64,000 bases of DNA. Origin: Methanosarcinales archaeon Methan_01. Its GTDB lineage: Archaea > Halobacteriota > Methanosarcinia > Methanotrichales > Methanotrichaceae. The stretch spans positions 1 through 64,000 of the forward strand of contig LUYE01000033.1 in the NCBI GenBank assembly GCA_001602645.1, read 5' to 3'. The notes below the pieces were generated by a model. It did not search any database, was not told the origin of the DNA, and saw only the letters and a list, made by a program, of their open reading frames with translations. The position numbers and the translations under genes are program-made. Shown in pieces: positions 22,994 to 52,774 of this stretch (position 1 is the first letter of the stretch; every line of letters starts with the position of its first letter).

Positions 22994-23716
22994 TCACATT
23001 TGGCAGCATCCATAGGCCCAGCTGCACCATCGGCTGCAGCCGCAGTTGCAGCAGGCTGACGACTTCGAGAAGCTGGGGCCGCAGTGGGTCGCCACACAAC
23101 CCAGATAGCCGACGATGGACGTCGCCGCCGGGGCGCAGACGTTCGGACCCAGACCGCACTCCACTCCGATCAGCGGGAGCTGGCCCAGCATACAGGTCCA
23201 CCAGCTGTTAGCCTCCACCACCGCCAGCCCCGAGGGAGACGCTGCGACGTAGTACTCCTCGATCGCGGAGACGTTCGTCTTTGGAGCTTTGAGGATGAAG
23301 GTGTACTGGGTAGCATAGCTTCCGTCGGAGGACCTGATCGCCATCCGCCCAACGGCGGCGGCCATATCCGAATCTGGGTTTGAATACTCCTGGACGAAGA
23401 ACTCGTAGGTCTGCTCCACCAACTCTCCAGCCGCGGATCCGTTAAAGGTCTGCTTCATGCCGAAGAAGTTATCATCGATCATCTCATTCGCCGGCTCAAA
23501 CCCCTCTTTGGCTAGATGCTGATCTGCCATCTGAACTCTATCGTCGGAGCTTCTGAGCCTATCCATCTCAGTACTGACGTGGGATTCGGCCAGGATCTCC
23601 ACGTCAGATTCGACGGTGACGCCCACGTTATCTTCCGGCTCGGCAAAACTCGATGGCAAGGCCATAAAAATTAGGCCAAATGAGATCGCCATCCAAACTG
23701 ATCTATTTTTTCTCAT
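22994..23716 (-). CDS. secreted protein with a 12-cysteine C-terminal domain, halocin C8-like layout
   Basis: 240 residues from ATG 23716, after TGAGGGGGG. Signal peptide MRKNRSVWMAISFGLIFMAL with cleavage near SSFA. The middle (residues 30-160) is Cys-free and includes FFGMKQTFNGSAAGELVEQT. The last ~70 residues carry 12 Cys: WWTCMLGQLPLIGVECGLGP, then GYLGCVATHCG, SSACCNCGCSRWC and YGCC. A long leader-like N-part followed by a small hydrophobic Cys-rich tail is the layout of halocin C8 precursors, in which the N-part is the immunity protein. The resemblance is in layout, not a demonstrated match. It could instead be a metal-binding or cell-surface protein. It is monocistronic. Confidence 0.65.
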   Translation of the reverse strand: MRKNRSVWMAISFGLIFMALPSSFAEPEDNVGVTVESDVEILAESHVSTEMDRLRSSDDRVQMADQHLAKEGFEPANEMIDDNFFGMKQTFNGSAAGELVEQTYEFFVQEYSNPDSDMAAAVGRMAIRSSDGSYATQYTFILKAPKTNVSAIEEYYVAASPSGLAVVEANSWWTCMLGQLPLIGVECGLGPNVCAPAATSIVGYLGCVATHCGPSFSKSSACCNCGCSRWCSWAYGCCQM

Positions 23717-24003
23717 AAATACCCCCCTCAATTTTGGTAATTGCAGACTAAGGAGCTTATGAAATATATGATCTTTTCGCCGTGCAGATCTTCGACTATC
23801 CGGCACCAGTTAGATTAAAATTCAAGAATGGATGTTCATGTAGCAGGAAGCTCAGGCGCCTTTATGGTGATGAATCGCTAACCGTGGATTTGGAGAAACG
23901 AGCGCGAGAGGGGTGAGGCGGAGCTTCGGGACCTTCGACGATTTGACGGAGCATTTTATTACGGTTGGTGACGGCCCTGAAATCGAAATGGGTGAAGTGA
24001 TGA

Positions 24004-24376: not shown

Positions 24377-24943
24377 TCAAGAAACAGGCGTAACGTCTCT
24401 GGCGCTCCTCTGCCCGCGGGGCGTGTCCATATTCTCGATTATATATCCGTTTATGGCGGCCTCAGCACGTTTTCGGCGGGACCTGCATTCATCGGAGATG
24501 CCGCAGAAGTGCTCTCCGGTCCTGCAGAAGACGTCGAAATGGTCCAGCCAAGGCGGTCGATCAGAGCTGAGCTGGATAAATTTAACCAGATTTTTGATCT
24601 GTTCTACGGTCTTCGTGTCCAGCTTGTGCTCCATGATGCACGCATCTTTATCCGCGATCGGCTCGGGAACATTGATGAGCATCAAAAACGCCTTTATCGT
24701 GTCGTGTCGATCTTTAATCACCCTCCCGATCTCCTCGCCCTTGGGGGTCAAGAACACCCCTTCCTGCTTCTTATGGACGACGTAGCCCAGTTCGTCCAGC
24801 TTCTTAACCATCTCGACAACGCTCGGAGGCCTAATATCAAGCTTTTGTGATATATCTCGCACTCTAGCGTACCCCTTCTCCTGCGATATTTCGAAGATCG
24901 CTTCCAGATAGTCCTCTGCTTTTCTCGATAGTTTGCTCATCAT
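24377..24943 (-). CDS. DtxR/MntR-family metal-dependent transcriptional repressor
   Basis: 188 residues from ATG 24943 (a second ATG follows at once). The N-terminus is typical: KLSRKAEDYLEAIFEISQEK, YARVRDISQKLDIRPPSVVE, MVKKLDELGYVVHKKQEGVF. The dimerisation/metal domain has HDTIKAFLMLINVPEPIADK, DACIMEHKLDTKTVEQIKNL, with Cys, Glu and His at the usual ancillary and primary sites. An extra C-terminal segment carries three Cys (FCRTGEHFCGISDECRSRR), unusual for DtxR and suggesting an additional cluster or redox site. Given the TTAGG/CCTAA sites nearby it is the best candidate for their regulator, and probably represses itself. Confidence 0.9.
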   Translation of the reverse strand: MMSKLSRKAEDYLEAIFEISQEKGYARVRDISQKLDIRPPSVVEMVKKLDELGYVVHKKQEGVFLTPKGEEIGRVIKDRHDTIKAFLMLINVPEPIADKDACIMEHKLDTKTVEQIKNLVKFIQLSSDRPPWLDHFDVFCRTGEHFCGISDECRSRRKRAEAAINGYIIENMDTPRGQRSARDVTPVS

Positions 24944-25102
24944 AAGATCACGCCATTCGTGGTCATCCTTGATCCTTGAATGCGACCTAAAAACGATCTG
25001 GGATGATCTTCTGGATCGCCCTGAGGGCCTCACTCCTCCAGCGACCCCTTGCCGTCACGAATTTAGGTCACCCAAACAGAGGCTTTAGGCGGATATATCG
25101 GT

Positions 25103-25123
25103 AACCCTAACAATGTTAGGGTT
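25103..25123. promoter_or_regulatory. palindrome upstream of the DtxR-like gene
   Basis: A perfect 9-bp inverted repeat AACCCTAAC-AAT-GTTAGGGTT. Its half-sites CCTAA-N5-TTAGG match, in spacing and sequence, the right-hand pair of the composite operators at 25300, 33444 and 34493. A TATA-like GATATAT lies at about 25091-25097, just below it on the reverse strand, so it would sit beside the promoter of the regulator gene (start 24943). Autoregulation is inferred. Confidence 0.7.
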
Positions 25124-25299
25124 GTGGTGAAATCCGAAATCGCGTTCAAAATTTTGGCCTTAAAGGTCTATCAATCTCGGACTGAGCCGAAGATGGGGGG
25201 AGTTGTTGAGCTATTGGAGGAAAGCATCCCGGCGAATTTCATCTGGTGGATTCACGTCCCCTCAATTTTGCGGCTCTGATATGCGGATCATGTATATCA

Positions 25300-25335
25300 T
25301 TAGGTGAGCATATAATCACCCCTAAGAACGTTAGG
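25300..25335. promoter_or_regulatory. composite operator site 1 (TTAGG-N16-CCTAA-N5-TTAGG)
   Basis: TTAGG at 25300-25304, CCTAA at 25321-25325 and TTAGG at 25331-25335. The 16-bp spacer holds a reverse-strand TATA-like GATTATATG, so a repressor bound here would cover a leftward promoter pointing at the DtxR-like gene. Half-sites are 21 and 10 bp apart, i.e. on one face of the helix. Confidence 0.7.
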
Positions 25336-25357: not shown

Positions 25358-26584
25358 TTACGCTGAGGCGGCGGCAGATTCCGCCCCCTCTGCAACGTTC
25401 CCATCCGCCCCATCGAAGATCTGGCTTGCCTCCATGGTCAAAATGTTGTTTCTCGCCTCGGCTTTCGTCTGCATAAAAGCCTCTTCTTCGGCCTCGGTGG
25501 GCTGATCGTCATGCCACCCCTTCGAGAAGCCCTCCACCTTGTACCTCAGATCGAAGAACTCCTCAGGAATGACGCCCTCTTTCACCCTCGTATCAAAGAT
25601 GGCGCCGGAGTCAGTTCGGACAAATGTGTATACGAAGTGCTCCTCCAGGGATAGGTTCTTTGGGCTGCCTGAAGGCACATAATCGACGCATTCCGGGGTG
25701 AGGATATGCTCAAAACACTCTCTTTGTCCCTTCCCCGGATGATGATAGGTGACTTTGAGCATCCCCTGGGTCGGGACCTCATCGCCGAATAGCTCCGAGA
25801 TGGCCACTTGGGTGACCCTGGCGGCCACTGCCGCGCAGAGACAGTCATCTCCATGAGCTTCTTTTGCCGCCTCTTCCACGGACAAGCTTATCAGCTCGCC
25901 CTGGGCATCGTAGATCTGGATCTTTTCCGGCACCTCCTCCGAGTTTGCGGCATCGGCCATGGCTTCGTAGACCAGGTCCATGGCTGGATCGTCGAGCATC
26001 ATCCCGGGGTTCGCCCAGGTTCCGTTCCAGGCGTCGAGGGTGATGAGAGACTCTCGCGCCGCCTTCATCATGGCGCCCATCATCGGCGCGCCTTCAGCAT
26101 AACTTTCAGCCAACTCCTCTGCGGTGATTTCCCCTTCAGCCAAAGTGGGGTACCACATCACATATCCTGGGTTGTTGATCAGGTCATCGAAGCTGGTGTT
26201 CCCGTACCTCATGTGCCAGTGAACCATCCCCTCGTCGCCTTCCGAGTGCACCCCAGTGGCGATCAGATACTTGTATTCAGAACAGGCCACGTCCCCTGAT
26301 TTAAGCTCGAACTTGTACCAATCGAACTCTTCACCTCCAAAAGTCACGGCCTCCTTGCCCACAAACTCGTATTCACACCGGCATCGAACCGTGCCGTCGG
26401 GGTTGTAATAGGTGACCACATCTCCTGCAATCTCCACGTCACCAAAGCTCGATCCCATCATCATCTGCAAAAAATTCTTGGCGTCGTCGGCGGTGAAGCC
26501 GTCATCCTCGGCCATGGCAGAGATCCCCAAAAGTAAGAGCCCCGCCATCATAGCAACAAAGCTTACTTTCGTTATCATCTTCAT
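25358..26584 (-). CDS. secreted protein with a possible FmdE-like segment, under the metal operator
   Basis: 408 residues with a signal peptide (MKMITKVSFVAMMAGLLLLG, cleavage near AMA). The N-terminal third is a beta-rich domain (DVVTYYNPDGTVRCRCEYEF). Around residue 235 comes KEAHGDDCLCAAVAARVTQV, which resembles the H-G-x-x-C-x-G metal-binding start of FmdE-domain proteins; the remainder includes KVTYHHPGKGQRECFEHILT. The FmdE relation is tentative. Composite operator site 2 lies about 120 bases above the start, so the gene is probably controlled together with feo and the DtxR-like gene. An extracellular metal or heme-binding role is plausible but unproven. Confidence 0.65.
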   Translation of the reverse strand: MKMITKVSFVAMMAGLLLLGISAMAEDDGFTADDAKNFLQMMMGSSFGDVEIAGDVVTYYNPDGTVRCRCEYEFVGKEAVTFGGEEFDWYKFELKSGDVACSEYKYLIATGVHSEGDEGMVHWHMRYGNTSFDDLINNPGYVMWYPTLAEGEITAEELAESYAEGAPMMGAMMKAARESLITLDAWNGTWANPGMMLDDPAMDLVYEAMADAANSEEVPEKIQIYDAQGELISLSVEEAAKEAHGDDCLCAAVAARVTQVAISELFGDEVPTQGMLKVTYHHPGKGQRECFEHILTPECVDYVPSGSPKNLSLEEHFVYTFVRTDSGAIFDTRVKEGVIPEEFFDLRYKVEGFSKGWHDDQPTEAEEEAFMQTKAEARNNILTMEASQIFDGADGNVAEGAESAAASA

Positions 26585-26700: not shown

Positions 26701-26736
26701 TTAGGTATGAAAAGAGCTATCCCTAAATAAGTTAGA
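26701..26736. promoter_or_regulatory. composite operator site 2 (TTAGG-N16-CCTAA-N5-TTAGA)
   Basis: TTAGG 26701-26705, CCTAA 26722-26726, TTAGA 26732-26736. It sits about 120 bases upstream of the secreted FmdE-like gene on the reverse strand, with an AT-rich spacer. Spacing is identical to the other five sites. Confidence 0.7.
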
Positions 26737-30496: not shown

Positions 30497-31807
30497 TCAC
30501 GAAAACCCGAGCAACCTGCCCACACCTATGATCAGGCCGGAGACGATAAAGGCCAAGGCCACCAGATAGGCCACCACGAAGCCAGCCCACCGATACGAAT
30601 TCGTTTCCTTGGCGACGATGCCGATGGTGGCCACGCATGGAACGTAGATCAGCACAAAGACCATGAAGGCAAACCCAGTGAGGGGAGTGAACAACCCCAG
30701 GCTGACGAGGGATTCTCCCAGGGACGCCTCATCTACACCGAGCAATATGCCGTAGGTTCCCACCACCACCTCTTTGGCCAGAAAACCGAAGAGGAGGGCA
30801 ACCGCAGCCATCCAGTCCCAGCCAAAGGGTCTGAAGACCGGCTCCAAGAAGTGGCCTAAGGAAGCGATGTACGAGTTCTCGATCAGCTCTCCGCCAGAAG
30901 TCGCCTCCCAGGGATGGGCTGATAGGAACCACACGACGAGCACCGTGCCGAAGATTATGGTGCCCGCCCTCACCAAAAACCACTTGCTCCGATCCCACAT
31001 GTGCAGGATCACCGTCCTCGCCGTGGGCATCGAATAAGCCGGCAGCTCCAGAACGAAAGGCGATGGCTCTCCCTTGAAGAGGGTCCTCCGGAATATCAGG
31101 GCCATGGCTATCGCTAGGGCGATCCCCAGGAGGTATATGGAGAATATCACCGTACCCGCATAACTTGCGCCGAATAAAGCGCCAGCTATGAGGACGTAGA
31201 CCGGAAGCCTTGCACCGCAGCTGATAAGGGGACTGACCAGGATGGTGATCATCCTGTCCTTCTCACCATCTATGCTCCGTGTGGCCATTATCGCCGGAAT
31301 GGTACATCCGAAGCCCATCATCATGGGTATGAAAGAGCGACCGTGAAGGCCCAGCTTGTACATCAGACGGTCCATCACGAAGGCCGCCCGGGAGAGGTAG
31401 CCGCTATCCTCCAGGATGGAGAGGGCGAGGAAGAGCATGAATATCGGCGGCACGAAGACCAGAACGGAGCCGAGGCCGCCAAAGATCCCTCCAGCCACGA
31501 AAGAGGCGAGATGGGGATTGGAGATACCATCTTCTGCGAGGCCCCCAAGCCATCCGAATATAAGCTCTATCATGACCATAAAGGGCTCCGAGAGGGCAAA
31601 GGTGAACTGGAAGACGCCCCATAAAAGGGCCAGAAAGATGGGAATCCCAAGCCACCGATGAAGGAATACGTGGTCTAAGATGTCTGTATAAGTCCATTTG
31701 CCCTCGCCCTTGGTGACGACAGTCTCCAAAATACCCGCGATGGCATGATATCGCCTTTCAGCGAGGATGGCCGCGGCATCATCTCCGGAAAATTCTGGCA
31801 TGATCAT
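30497..31807 (-). CDS. feoB2: FeoB, membrane permease part (split FeoB)
   Basis: 436 residues corresponding to the C-terminal two thirds of FeoB. It begins MIMPEFSGDDAAAILAERRY and has the gate regions: LGIPIFLALLWGVFQFTFAL, MMGFGCTIPAIMATRSI (first Gate motif with Cys), SCGARLPVYVLIAGALF, FGFLAKEVVVGTYGILLG and IYVPCVATIGIVAKE (second Gate motif). It carries ferrous iron across the membrane together with the separately encoded G domain. The ATG overlaps the stop of the G-domain gene (ATGA), so the two halves are translationally coupled. FeoB is usually one polypeptide. Confidence 0.93.
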   Translation of the reverse strand: MIMPEFSGDDAAAILAERRYHAIAGILETVVTKGEGKWTYTDILDHVFLHRWLGIPIFLALLWGVFQFTFALSEPFMVMIELIFGWLGGLAEDGISNPHLASFVAGGIFGGLGSVLVFVPPIFMLFLALSILEDSGYLSRAAFVMDRLMYKLGLHGRSFIPMMMGFGCTIPAIMATRSIDGEKDRMITILVSPLISCGARLPVYVLIAGALFGASYAGTVIFSIYLLGIALAIAMALIFRRTLFKGEPSPFVLELPAYSMPTARTVILHMWDRSKWFLVRAGTIIFGTVLVVWFLSAHPWEATSGGELIENSYIASLGHFLEPVFRPFGWDWMAAVALLFGFLAKEVVVGTYGILLGVDEASLGESLVSLGLFTPLTGFAFMVFVLIYVPCVATIGIVAKETNSYRWAGFVVAYLVALAFIVSGLIIGVGRLLGFS

Positions 31808-32577
31808 TCCACCGCCGCTGCGATCTTTCTCCGATGAGGGCTCGCCTCTATCAGCCTCATAACTTGATCATCTTTCTCCAGCACCTTTATGGCCAGCCAT
31901 CGGGGAGGGTATCTGCTCGATAGCTCCGCATCCATGCGGACGGCGTCCTCAACCTCGGCTATGGCGGCCTCTGCATCCTCACCGTATCCGACCACCATCT
32001 TCCTCTTCCCCCCTCCGGACTTCGCTGCATCCAAAACCATCTCTTTCAACTTCTCCACGCCCTCGCCCGTAGTGGCGACGGTGGGGACGACGGGCACCCC
32101 CAGAAGTTCGGAGAGCTTCTCAGCTTCGATGCCGATTGACCTCTCCTGAGCCATATCCCACCGATTCAAGGCCACCACCAGGTTCGTCTCCAGCTCCAGC
32201 AGAAGAAGGGTGAGGTAGAGGTTCCTCTCGAGGCTGGTGGCGTCCGCGATGTCCACCACCACGTCCGGCCTCTCCTCCAGGATGTAGTTTCGGGATATCA
32301 GCTCGTCTTTTGCCTGGGTGGCAAGGCTGTAGGTCCCCGGTAGGTCGACGACCTCGATCTCCTCGCCTTTGTACGTAAACATTCCAGTTTTTTTCTCCAC
32401 AGTGACCCCGGGCCAGTTTCCGACATGCTGCTTCATGCCGGTGAGCTGGTTGAAGAGCTCTGTCTTGCCGACATTGGGGTTGCCGATGATGGCCACCGTC
32501 TTCATCGACCCTCCGCTCTGCTGATCAATGTCTTTATGTCGACGAAACGACGGTAGCTTATGACAACATCCTGTCAT
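31804..32577 (-). CDS. feoB1: FeoB, GTPase part (split FeoB)
   Basis: Up to 257 residues. The G domain shows G1 GNPNVGKTELFNQLTG, G2/switch I NWPGVTVEKKTG, G3 DLPGTYSL, G4 NRWDMA and the following helical domain to residue 250. Two starts are possible: ATG 32577, which overlaps the feoA2 stop as ATGA and adds an N-terminus with CCH, as in FeoB proteins with a metal-binding N-terminal segment; or ATG 32505 with GGAGGG just above. I favour the longer form because of the overlap. The product ends KIAAAVE where a normal FeoB would continue into the membrane domain. Confidence 0.92.
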   Translation of the reverse strand: MTGCCHKLPSFRRHKDIDQQSGGSMKTVAIIGNPNVGKTELFNQLTGMKQHVGNWPGVTVEKKTGMFTYKGEEIEVVDLPGTYSLATQAKDELISRNYILEERPDVVVDIADATSLERNLYLTLLLLELETNLVVALNRWDMAQERSIGIEAEKLSELLGVPVVPTVATTGEGVEKLKEMVLDAAKSGGGKRKMVVGYGEDAEAAIAEVEDAVRMDAELSSRYPPRWLAIKVLEKDDQVMRLIEASPHRRKIAAAVE

Positions 32578-33097: not shown

Positions 33098-33128
33098 CCG
33101 ATCCGGTCGAAGATCTCAACCGGATCGG
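33098..33128. promoter_or_regulatory. perfect hairpin in the feo leader
   Basis: CCGATCCGGT (33098-33107) pairs fully with ACCGGATCGG (33119-33128) around an 11-base loop. It ends 26 bases above the feoA1 start. It could terminate an upstream RNA, hide or expose the start region, or be a DNA operator. There is no T run on the reverse strand directly after it. Confidence 0.55.
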
Positions 33129-33142
33129 ATGATTTCGCATGA

Positions 33143-33157
33143 TTCGGATTATCCGAA
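33143..33157. promoter_or_regulatory. 15-bp palindrome upstream of feoA1
   Basis: TTCGGAT-T-ATCCGAA is a perfect palindrome about 71 bases above the feoA1 start. Its half-site differs from TTAGG/CCTAA, so a second regulator may act on feo. The binding protein is unknown. Confidence 0.45.
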
Positions 33158-33265
33158 CAATGGCTGATAGATGCAAGTTAGGTGGAGAAATTGGTATCCC
33201 GAAGAGAGTTCGACTCCGAAGCTAAATCCGAATTATCTCGACAAGGCGTCGACTAAATCAGAGGC

Positions 33266-33433
33266 GAATAAAAAGGAGCTGAGCCGGAGATGGTCGTGCG
33301 GATATTGCTTTCAAGATGGAGTTGTGATGCATGGCAGTCCCGATGATATCTGCGAAAGGAGGTCGCCTTTGAGCAGTTCCATGAACATCGGGTGAGTTCA
33401 GCTCTATCAACTTATTCTCCGGCTCACGCGCTT
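33266..33433 (-). ncRNA. structured ncRNA unit A, upstream of feo (copy nearest feo)
   Basis: Reverse-strand unit of about 168 nt. The closing stem is GAGCCGGAGA (33425-33416) with TCTCCGGCTC (33290-33281), followed by a T run (CTCCTTTTTATT). Inside are CCCGATG/CATCGGG (33339-33345 with 33386-33392) and a nested stem CTGC/GCAG plus AAAGG/CCTTT with an AGGTCG loop (RNA strand: CGACCT). It lies just downstream of operator site 3, whose spacer holds AATATTAC as TATA. It is about 80% identical to unit B, with a one-base indel that excludes a shared protein frame. It could be an independent small RNA or a leader element of feo. Ends are estimated. Confidence 0.6.
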
Positions 33434-33443
33434 ACATACCTCT

Positions 33444-33479
33444 TTAGGTGAACAAGTAATATTCCCTAAAGGAGATAGG
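33444..33479. promoter_or_regulatory. composite operator site 3, promoter of ncRNA unit A
   Basis: TTAGG 33444-33448, CCTAA 33465-33469, ATAGG 33475-33479. The first two sit inside a perfect 7-bp inverted repeat CTTTAGG/CCTAAAG. The spacer contains the reverse-strand TATA-like GAATATTAC, about 25-30 bases above the predicted RNA start. Confidence 0.7.
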
Positions 33480-33579
33480 TTATAGAGGCAGCACCTAAAA
33501 ATCCGACGGGACGGAGTAGGACGCTCATTAATGGCGAAAATTTAAAGAGGGATAAGTGAGGTTATAAACTGAAGTGTAA

Positions 33580-33745
33580 ATAATAAAAATGAAGAGAACC
33601 GGAGACGGTTGTGCGGAATGGCGTTTAAGATGGAGTCGTGTTTCATGGCCGCCCCGATGATATCGGCGTAAGGAGGTCACCCTTGATGGGTTCTATAAAC
33701 ATCGGGGGGTTTGGCCCATTATCCCATTCTCCGGCTCACGCGCTT
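33580..33745 (-). ncRNA. structured ncRNA unit B, tandem copy of unit A
   Basis: Reverse-strand unit of about 166 nt. The closing stem is again GAGCCGGAGA with TCTCCGGTTC, where one C-to-T change in the 3' arm is kept as a G-U pair. The second stem is CCCCGATG/CATCGGGG (one pair longer than in A), and the inner stem AAGG/CCTT encloses TGACC. A T-rich end (CATTTTTATTATT) follows. Conservation of stems with compensating differences, together with loss of any common reading frame, supports an RNA. The upstream promoter carries operator site 4. Ends are estimated. Confidence 0.6.
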
Positions 33746-33755
33746 ACATCCCCCT

Positions 33756-33791
33756 TTAGGTGAACAAGTAATATGCCCTAACGGCCGTAGG
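33756..33791. promoter_or_regulatory. composite operator site 4, promoter of ncRNA unit B
   Basis: TTAGG 33756-33760, CCTAA 33777-33781, GTAGG 33787-33791, with the same N16 and N5 spacings. The spacer is nearly identical to that of site 3 (TGAACAAGTAATATGC), with reverse-strand CATATTAC as TATA. Confidence 0.7.
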
Positions 33792-33884
33792 TTTTCGGGG
33801 ACGGGGCCTAATGAGCCGACGGGACGGCGCCAGTCGCCTTTTTTGGGGGTGGCTCAAACTTCAAGGAAAAACGCGAATCCTGGT

Positions 33885-34419
33885 TCAAGATCTGCATCCG
33901 CTCGCGAGGTTCGGCGGCTCGGAGAGCGGAGAAAGAGGGCCCGATCCGCTGCCACCGGCTCGGTAAACTACGTAGTTTTTCCCCCGCCGCTCCACCAGGT
34001 GGTCCCATTCTGGCGGCAGCAACTCCATCATGGGGCCGCTTCTGATGATCACCCTCTCCCTTGCTATCCGGAGCATCTCCTCCACAAACCTCCTCACCCC
34101 CGCCCGGATGTCGCCCCGACTGCGGAAGGGCTTCATCGGCGGGTTTAAGGAGACGACGTAAGAGAAGCTCTCCGACGGATAATCGAGCTCGGTTATGTCG
34201 GCGAGCCGTGCTGGTATCCCCCGTTCGACGAGATGCTCTACGAAGGCGGGGGAGTTGTCGTGGCCGCAGACGTCGTCGTATAGGCAGGCCAGGGATACCG
34301 GCCCGCAGGCCACGTCCAGGATCCTCCCCTCAAGGTCTATCCCCATCTGGTCCAGGTAGCCCTCGAACTTATCTCGAGCTGTGGAACAATATCGCACACA
34401 GGTCACCAAATACGTCCAC
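33885..34419 (-). CDS. SAM-dependent methyltransferase-like protein with an apparent early frameshift
   Basis: About 177 residues if two frames are joined. From GTG 34419 (after AGAGGACGAG) the frame reads MDVFGDLCAILFHSSR and stops at TAA 34371-34369; the next frame continues DKFEGYLDQMGIDLEGRILD, VACGPVSLACLYDDVCGHDN (SAM-binding), LDYPSESFSYVVSLNPPMKP and FVEEMLRIARERVIIRSGPM. One base too many at TCGAGATAAG separates them, so the gene is frameshifted, the shift is programmed, or the sequence has an error; alternatively a shorter product starts at TTG 34409. Composite operator site 5 lies about 75 bases upstream, linking it to the metal regulon. Substrate unknown. Confidence 0.65.
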
Positions 34420-34492
34420 CTCGTCCTCTTTGATCCCGATCGGCTCCAGAAGAGAAGGCTTCGGATCCCGACCGGTGGCGGGGGGTTATTCT

Positions 34493-34528
34493 TTAGGGAT
34501 CCAAATAATATTCCCTAAAAATAATAGG
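34493..34528. promoter_or_regulatory. composite operator site 5, upstream of the methyltransferase gene
   Basis: TTAGG 34493-34497, CCTAA 34514-34518, ATAGG 34524-34528. The inverted arms extend to TTTAGGGA/TTCCCTAAA. The reverse-strand spacer holds AATATTATTTGG as TATA. The leftward gene starts at 34419. Confidence 0.7.
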
Positions 34529-44447: not shown

Positions 44448-44473
44448 TTAGGTTTTTAGGAATCTTCGCCTAA
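44448..44473. promoter_or_regulatory. composite operator site 6 (TTAGG-N16-CCTAA)
   Basis: TTAGG 44448-44452 and CCTAA 44469-44473, spacer 16 bp, the same as sites 1-5. The third half-site is poor (TAAAT). A further TTTAGG lies inside the spacer. On the + strand a TATA-like TTAAATATT follows at about 44478, in front of the small gene at 44536. This site is more than 9 kb from the others. Confidence 0.5.
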
Positions 44474-52300: not shown

Positions 52301-52521
52301 AGACCCACCCAGATGTGGAGAGCGGAGTCGTTGTCTGGCAAGATGACAGGAACGGCAATTGGGATCTTTATCTTTATAACCAAAAAGCTCAAACCGAGAG
52401 AGTTATCTGCACGGATGCCGGGAACCAGACCCAGCCACGCATTCGCATGGGGAGGATCGTCTGGACTGATGATCGCAATGGAGGCCAAGATATATATCTT
52501 TGCGAAAGTCTTGCGATCTGA
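49288..52521 (+). CDS. large secreted protein: HEAT, TPR, beta-helix-like and TolB-like propeller domains
   Basis: 1077 residues from ATG 49288 (MRYSFYLFIIAALIIGVAEP). After the signal peptide come a HEAT stretch (LEPLFGALNDSDGKVQKNAA), TPR pair, a beta-helix-like segment (YKDFKSAIDAAMPGETIDVA), a second HEAT unit, about seven TPRs (residues ~420-700), and a C-terminal six-bladed-propeller-like region with repeated WQDNRSGNWDIYAFD and WQDDRNGNWDLYLYN blades, as in TolB/surface proteins. Probably a cell-surface scaffold. The fold order appears as a mosaic of the domains in the two preceding genes. The stop is followed by decayed sequence. Confidence 0.8.
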   Translation: MRYSFYLFIIAALIIGVAEPANYMYEKPSIMHVETVLGSYGFSGAKLIESKIGSSLSSDNTLGVEMESGTWCKVISSKESLNNTEKIGDYRSLEPLFGALNDSDGKVQKNAAEVLEYLGWNISAEKNEAETKQLASAASSHQAEKMLDEGRALASQGKLEEAIQAFDEVLKLDSENLTAWYLKATILAWQGKSQEAYECYDKVATVKSEGSIIGASIFGGPVLLQLDQTQPRKSGIFNSYMHGSVLDPYGRLPILDSTIGTLVLSGGAPKTEGSSRIKVCSSGCAYKDFKSAIDAAMPGETIDVAEGTYFEDINITKSLWFRSEGEGVRYEGTISSNGFPVTFEGESANSFAAVNLYPKSVQDEILGLKDPDSDVRFVSLMVLARENDSRAIEPMTSLLYDKNEHLRVAAAEALLNMGVRGQSAKGVALYLTGEKEAAQQNLDEAIKRDSADADAWFSKGFVQELEKNYNESIECYETATGLNQSFVVAWVKKGSLHKELTQYDDALRCYEKALSLCQSDARIWHETGAILLECDNLSGAWDCYNRALHMGWKDTSLWSDEWKDKGDSFCISGNYSRAVECYNASIRLNSQDPAIWNAKGCALAAQEMVTEATECFLHSTALDPMYSPPRYNNGVLLKHIGQIDEALKCFDEAARLAPAYPDIWEARGEALQALGRSSEAEANCAAAKKLNKESGYVGQSVTEIKSSSGNVITETTELEAERQSSINASQSTPVYDDPQIYDIIATWKSLLGNESNGSSGKRAAKSSPHESINLRCICNASGDQSDPVVGGNDQVGYYVAWMDNRTGRPDIYVYSLAQEKELPFAVGPYEDMYPDIDGSVISWVSHNPRNKYLIEDYWSIWALDMSNANVTELVRGLEDATDISIRGNYLTYVQLPVPAFGARIYKKPLCGDETTPAIPPAGSNPRSGEDFVVFQSDKNDSWDIYIWERGGNPVPLQSDGYDQINPSTDEHTVVWQDNRSGNWDIYAFDLNSSQEIQITKDLADQTHPDVESGVVVWQDDRNGNWDLYLYNQKAQTERVICTDAGNQTQPRIRMGRIVWTDDRNGGQDIYLCESLAI

Positions 52522-52690
52522 AGGTAGGTTGGTTTAGTACGAGAGAAACATGCCAAAGGTGCCTCTGGTCGATCGGTTCTCTGGCAAGACAAGGCCGAGC
52601 AGCTACATGCCTAGCGGATAAGGGCTGAAAGCATCTAAAAAATGGGGTTATCTCGGTAGCGTTGATAATCTCTCTTTTGAGAGCTAATCC

Positions 52691-52774
52691 GAAGCCCTCG
52701 ATTATACGGGAACGTATAATGACAGGTGGTACCTCGCGCCAAGGGGGATCGATCTGGGTGCGATTAGGAGGTAA
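52691..52774 (+). pseudogene. decayed 3' end copy of the gene at 43896
   Basis: The frame reads EALDYTGTYNDRWYLAPRGI and DLGAIRR then TAA, against EALEHVQKHKGRWYLAPRGI-DRTAAKR in the intact gene. Upstream GAGAGCTAATCC matches GAGAGCTTATCC of the intact gene followed by a short deletion. No start; a relic. Confidence 0.8.

Follow-up and report, generated by a model that had tools for sequence, protein, structure and literature searches.

Two tandem units on the reverse strand of a contig (LUYE01000033.1) of the acetate-using methanogen Methanosarcinales archaeon Methan_01, here called units A and B, are probably iron-repressed small RNA genes of a DtxR regulon, the transcripts of which would mask the ribosome-binding sites of other mRNAs. 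The units lie between a methyltransferase gene and feoA1, within the 64,000-nucleotide stretch of DNA that was analysed (the window, to which all positions refer). Their operators, the regulon to which these belong, their conservation, their non-coding nature, and their separation from the feo genes can be read from the DNA itself. In their arrangement, the units resemble the iron-saving RNAs of bacteria, of which they could be an archaeal counterpart.

Unit A, the upstream copy (33579-33750, reverse strand), is predicted to specify an RNA of about 170 nt that extends from a conserved ATGTAAG to a T-run, and is of the A-type, as is the copy in the congener G001. Unit B, the downstream copy (33264-33436, reverse strand), has a predicted RNA of similar length (about 170 nt) that extends from a conserved TGTAAG to a T-run, and is of the B-type, as are the copies in G003, G004, and G007. 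Alignment of the full units showed them to be 78% identical (overall range, 78-81%), and a repeat search returned an 89-nt block with 81% and a 75-nt block with 87% identity between the two, at a spacing of 312-314 nt. The outer stem is formed by a 5′ arm at 33728-33737 and a 3′ arm at 33596-33605 in unit A, and by a 5′ arm at 33416-33425 and a 3′ arm at 33281-33290 in unit B (all on the reverse strand); GAGCCGGAGA pairs with TCTCCGGCTC in unit B, and with TCTCCGGTTC in unit A. A second stem, CCCGATG/CATCGGG, pairs 33700-33706 with 33653-33659 in unit A, and 33386-33392 with 33339-33345 in unit B (reverse strand), and is one pair longer in the upstream copy (33700s). An inner hairpin (AAAGG/CCTTT) was found in the units, and a T-run stands at the 3′ end of both. 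The architecture described in the earlier note, namely two reverse-strand units of about 170 nt with closing, second, and inner stems followed by a T-run, was thus recovered in full.

Each unit is preceded by a 28-bp operator and core promoter (GTTAGGGCATATTACTTGTTCACCTAAA at 33755-33782 for unit A and TTTAGGGAATATTACTTGTTCACCTAAA at 33443-33470 for unit B, reverse strand), and these operators differ from each other at two bases. The strict operator pattern matched twice in the window, compared with an expectation of 0.00. A relaxed pattern, TTAGGG-N15-CCTAA with one mismatch allowed, gave 15 matches in the window, which represent about eight sites found mostly on both strands; the mean over 100 shuffles was 0.63 with a maximum of 6, and none of the shuffled sequences reached 15. 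Additional sites, all on the reverse strand, were located 5′ of feoA1 (33177-33204, CTTCGGGATACCAATTTCTCCACCTAAC, with the half-site variant TTCGGG), the methyltransferase gene (34492-34519, near-palindromic), the gene of a secreted protein with a ZinT domain (26701-26726), dtxR (25085-25110, TTAGGGTTACCGATATATCCGCCTAA), and a second structured element between the ZinT gene and dtxR (25300-25325). The dtxR operator is kept in G003 and in G001, where its counterpart reads TTAGGGTTACCGATATATTCGCCTAA. In the relatives, the operator is likewise kept before the unit, the methyltransferase gene, feo, and dtxR. An eighth, weak operator-like site (44448-44473, one mismatch, both strands) lies ahead of small ORFs that begin at about 44537. 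A further operator-like match common to the genomes, CTTCGGGACGGTCATG..., proved to lie in the last part of a gene for an RNA polymerase subunit and was discarded as a coding coincidence.

The DtxR-family regulator encoded at 24377-24940 on the reverse strand (PF01325, PF02742) is the sole clear one in this genome. A clear DtxR protein was detected in six genomes, with exactly one over the cut-off in each, and dtxR is located directly downstream of feoB in G001, G005, G007, and G008. Operator, regulator, and iron uptake are linked by their position and by the sites that they have in common. Metal control is well supported, because the operator precedes the units, the methyltransferase gene, feoA1, the ZinT-like gene (25358-26584, reverse strand), and dtxR itself. 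The earlier proposal that each unit has a metal-type operator-promoter of its own therefore stands, and can be tied to a single DtxR regulon. Binding of DtxR to the operator, and the direction of its control, would be those expected of the DtxR family. One observation counts against the small RNA reading: a DtxR gene is not detectable in G004, which carries the unit.

The second candidate structured RNA (25182-25276, reverse strand) is located below its own operator between the ZinT gene and dtxR, and has a GAGCCG...CGGCTC outer stem and conserved sequence (GCTTTCCTCCAAT, TTTCCTCC). Its homologue in G003 (L081) has no operator and directly follows the stop of the ZinT gene; between these two sequences, the outer stem differs in sequence and still pairs.

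The folding of the units was compared over six copies, the two in this genome and those of four relatives. Folding energies were mildly better than those of shuffled sequence, with z-scores of -2.0, -0.9, -0.5, -2.3, -1.8, and -1.8. The closed-stem layout is common to all copies, and every pair of the outer and second stems forms in all six. Two-sided change, the covariation among homologues that the earlier note had proposed to look for, was seen in one of 22 pairs among the six sequences and was equalled by 202 of 500 shuffles, so the stems are plausible and not proven. The accompanying claim that differences between the copies preserve pairing weighs little, because the stem positions hardly vary.

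Little or no variation was seen in two stretches that are predicted to be open, one being the loop region of GACCUCCUU and the other GCCAUG.A.CAC.ACUCCAUCUU. The first includes ACCUCCU, an anti-Shine-Dalgarno sequence. On the DNA, the invariant, anti-Shine-Dalgarno-like GACCTCCTT occupies 33670-33678 in unit A and 33356-33364 in unit B, where ACCT is placed in the inner loop and CCTT in its stem. The conserved GCCATG.A.CAC.ACTCCATCTT, predicted to be single-stranded, lies at 33313-33335 in unit B, and its counterpart in unit A, also predicted to be single-stranded, at 33627-33649 (all on the reverse strand). The anti-Shine-Dalgarno match alone is weak evidence, since this genome is rich in ACCTCCT (38 matches within the 64-kb window, or a chance of about 5% per unit). 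That such a match is not rare by chance leaves some room for an iron-regulated non-coding RNA that acts through a protein (DtxR, Lsm or another chaperone, or an iron enzyme) or as a sponge, and the stems keep their sequence and not just their pairing, as would be expected of a protein-binding RNA. The predicted unpaired stretches, however, are among the most conserved parts of the units, which is typical of base-pairing RNAs, and an action of this kind is considered unlikely.

The relation of the units to feo bears on a second alternative. The genes feoA1 (PF04023, 32830-33072) and feoA2 (PF04023, 32574-32837) and the GTPase half (FeoB_N, 31804-32577) and membrane half (Gate and FeoB_C, 30497-31807) of feoB are all on the reverse strand. 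FeoB is thus encoded by two overlapping ORFs (30497-32577, reverse strand), and the GTPase and membrane halves are in different frames in four of four relatives too. The earlier note had offered, as its alternative, a duplicated leader or riboswitch-like element of feoA1; a cis-acting element of this kind would let polymerase from the unit promoter read through a weak T-run into feoA1. The unit always lies directly 5′ of feoA1 on the same strand, and its T-run in G004 and G007 is a weak one, which counts for a leader and against a small RNA. A leader would have no promoter between itself and its gene, whereas here a conserved feo operator intervenes, about 60-90 nt downstream of unit B. This operator was detected in seven congeners; two of these, G005 and G008, lack the unit, indicating that feo does not require the unit. 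The conservation profile is high over the unit operator and most of the body, drops in the spacer, and rises again at the feo operator. One conserved block covers the unit from its operator to just short of the T-run, and another, separate from it, is the feo operator. Two tandem leaders with a promoter each would also be odd, and no Rfam riboswitch match was obtained. Because feo keeps its own operator, also in the genomes without the unit, a feo leader is disfavoured and appears distinctly improbable.

The unit is present in five of the nine genomes of the genus (this one included), with two units in this genome only and a single copy in each of the other four carriers. Public records that contain it are those of Methanothrix harundinacea, which is one of the single-copy carriers, Methanothrix sp. 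MAG 280, and Candidatus Methanocrinis natronophilus. All five carriers have the gene order methyltransferase, unit, feoA1, feoA2, feoB, so that homologues beside feo, which the earlier note had suggested seeking in other methanogens, do occur at the same place in four other species. The upstream neighbour in all five is the SAM-dependent methyltransferase gene (33885-34412 in the window, reverse strand; PF13649/PF08241, weak). This small methyltransferase shares the regulon of the operator, and its substrate is perhaps a metal chelator. Relatives of a cysteine-rich secreted protein encoded at 22994-23806 (reverse strand) are located directly 5′ of feo in G005 and G008, at the place where other species have units. 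A fragment at 52512-52716 (forward strand) matches positions 2725-2881 of the archaeal LSU rRNA, just over the Rfam cut-off, with no full rRNA reported around it.

Outside the genus, DNA and covariance searches with strict filters found no unit among the 50 family genomes and 150 class genomes covered, and a pattern scan of GTDB genomes gave matches in Methanothrix and Methanocrinis records alone. No known RNA family was matched by the units, with the whole window scanned at the Rfam gathering threshold and 33100-33900 at E<=5. Comparison of the more distant species shows higher conservation in the unit than at the fourfold sites of feoB (for example, 84% versus 51% for unit B and G004). It might be argued that duplicated intergenic DNA has been kept mainly for its operator and specifies no functional RNA, given that the operator is the strongest signal and that the structure statistics are modest. 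Against this, about 150 nt below the operator exceed the fourfold sites in conservation between distant members and contain invariant blocks, and the same closed-stem layout recurs in every copy, which makes it very unlikely that the operator is all that is maintained.

The units are not protein-coding, since no frame is intact across the six copies. The earlier note had reached the same view from a one-base indel between units A and B, which was held to exclude a common frame; the view holds, and the indel is insufficient, because MF..KGDLL can be read from both units. What excludes a shared frame is that G003 has a nonsense codon and G001 a frameshift. It is highly improbable that a short protein (MF.EPLKGDLLSQISSG..., about 19-28 residues) is encoded here, either alone or by an RNA with a second function: four copies (unit A, unit B, G004, and G007) have the ATG frame (MF.EPLKGDLL...) open and show several changes at third positions, but it is broken by nonsense at codon 4 in G003, by the frameshift in G001, and by a stop at codon 20 in unit A, and its ATG has no Shine-Dalgarno sequence and sits within a conserved stem.

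The phylogeny of the six copies groups unit A with G001, and unit B with G003, G004, and G007, with full support, and 13 sites split the copies into the A-type and the B-type. The fourfold sites of feoB place G003 closest to this genome, at odds with the copy types. This mismatch can be traced to recombination junctions in the flanks. In G003, the DNA above the unit corresponds to the flank above unit A up to a shared repeat, GTCCCGTCGG, and beyond this repeat it matches the promoter, body, and downstream flank of unit B. In G001, the body is of the A-type, but the downstream flank resembles that of unit B (82% versus 57%). These patterns suggest, from few sequences, that the tandem pair is ancestral and collapsed to a single copy separately in G001 and in G003, which also speaks against an assembly artefact. 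Horizontal exchange, instead of the collapse of an ancestral pair, is a possible explanation of the same patterns.

Under the small RNA reading, the units would be off when iron is sufficient, with Fe(II)-DtxR bound to the TTAGGG-N15-CCTAA operator, which overlaps the presumed TATA region; feo, dtxR itself, and the genes of the methyltransferase and the ZinT-like protein would be repressed along with them. When iron is short, each unit promoter would fire and give an RNA with its end at the T-run and a length of about 160-170 nt. The conserved outer stem would close this RNA, and its interior would expose the anti-Shine-Dalgarno hairpin loop and the second open stretch. Translation of chosen mRNAs may then be blocked where the exposed stretches pair with their ribosome-binding sites and early codons. 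The most useful targets would be iron-rich enzymes, with cdhA of CODH/ACS as the best single candidate. Here, we infer the start and end of transcription, the direction of iron control (from the DtxR family), the base-pairing in trans, and the targets.

A search for AAGGAGGTY-N-ATG returned one start region common to all five unit-bearing genomes, AAGGAGGTCAAGC-ATG, which, from its sequence, we take to be that of cdhA, the alpha subunit of CODH/ACS. Early codons of this gene, AAGATGGA, also match the second accessible stretch. In a ranking of about 356-357 start regions, drawn with crude gene calls from a 400-kb sample of stretches, cdhA was placed 8th and 15th with two segments of unit B (top 2-4%). 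Its ranks with segments of unit A, 51st and 59th (about 14-17%), count against it. Three of the four congeners that have no unit (G002, G006, and G008) conserve the cdhA leader equally well, so the RNA does not account for this conservation, which is no evidence for cdhA as a co-evolving target. Overall, cdhA is a plausible lead as a target, and not a result. Nearly every genome of the genus has two cdhA copies (G000 C34:181222 and C31:30200; L164, L173), with clearly different ribosome-binding sites, AAGGAGGTCAAGC versus GAGAGAGGTGAGA, each largely conserved across species. A target search with AAGGAGGTCRCC gave matches far above the reversed control, which, from their codon composition, are mostly probably coding, and was uninformative; a search with AAGATGGAGTYGTG found no conserved start region.

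Iron-sparing small RNAs occur in several bacterial groups, and have no common sequence or synteny. PrrF1 and PrrF2 form a tandem pair, PrrF and RyhB are controlled by Fur, and IdeR is a DtxR-family protein. The tandem arrangement of PrrF1/PrrF2 is that of units A and B, and PrrF and RyhB are iron-repressed RNAs, as is proposed for the units. Unlike them, the units match no Rfam model at any threshold tried. PrrF and RyhB are Hfq-dependent (PMC9410917). IsrR and FsrA are Fur-controlled RNAs with C-rich regions that bind the Shine-Dalgarno sequences of iron-enzyme mRNAs (PMC9410917). The units resemble IsrR of Staphylococcus and FsrA of Bacillus in combining the operator of an iron repressor, a small RNA, and C-rich or anti-Shine-Dalgarno single-stranded regions; they differ in that IsrR and FsrA are bacterial, Fur-controlled, and without relation to the units in sequence or synteny, and in that expression and targets are proven there and predicted here. 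In Mycobacterium tuberculosis, the iron-sparing RNA MrsI has IdeR, which is functionally homologous to Fur, as its predicted regulator (PMC9410917). Its predicted regulator and the regulator considered here are both of the DtxR family, whereas MrsI is bacterial and has no known sequence relation to the units.

Among methanogens, the small RNAs sRNA154, sRNA162, and sRNA41 of Methanosarcina mazei act by masking ribosome-binding sites; ACDS is repressed by sRNA41 (PMC5867862), and sRNA162 has a homologous paralogue, sRNA171 (PMC5867862, PMC3510493). These RNAs parallel the reading of the units as methanogen RNAs that mask ribosome-binding sites, in the existence of a paralogue pair, and in that ACDS is the enzyme of the proposed target; unlike what is proposed for the units, sRNA154 and sRNA41 respond to nitrogen supply. 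The covariance model of the unit had no match outside its own genus in the 150 class genomes searched with strict filters. Archaeal metal regulons of the DtxR family, those of Idr1/Idr2, SirR, and TroR, have been described in iron homeostasis (PMC11349517), and the regulator here resembles them in family and in its connection to iron homeostasis. In the open literature searched, we found neither an archaeal DtxR regulon reported to include a small RNA nor an archaeal iron-regulated small RNA of this kind.

The most far-reaching form of the proposal, possible and on balance doubtful, is that these are the first archaeal iron-sparing small RNAs, an ancestral DtxR-controlled tandem pair that shuts off CODH/ACS (cdhA) and other iron-rich enzymes when iron is short, so that iron supply throttles acetate-driven methane formation in Methanothrix and Methanocrinis. 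If the locus makes such an RNA, the same iron-sparing solution would exist in Archaea under a DtxR repressor, and the units would provide a rare archaeal small RNA for which the DNA sequence itself identifies the controlling transcription factor. If the proposal is true, it would also establish a concrete link between iron supply and aceticlastic methanogenesis.
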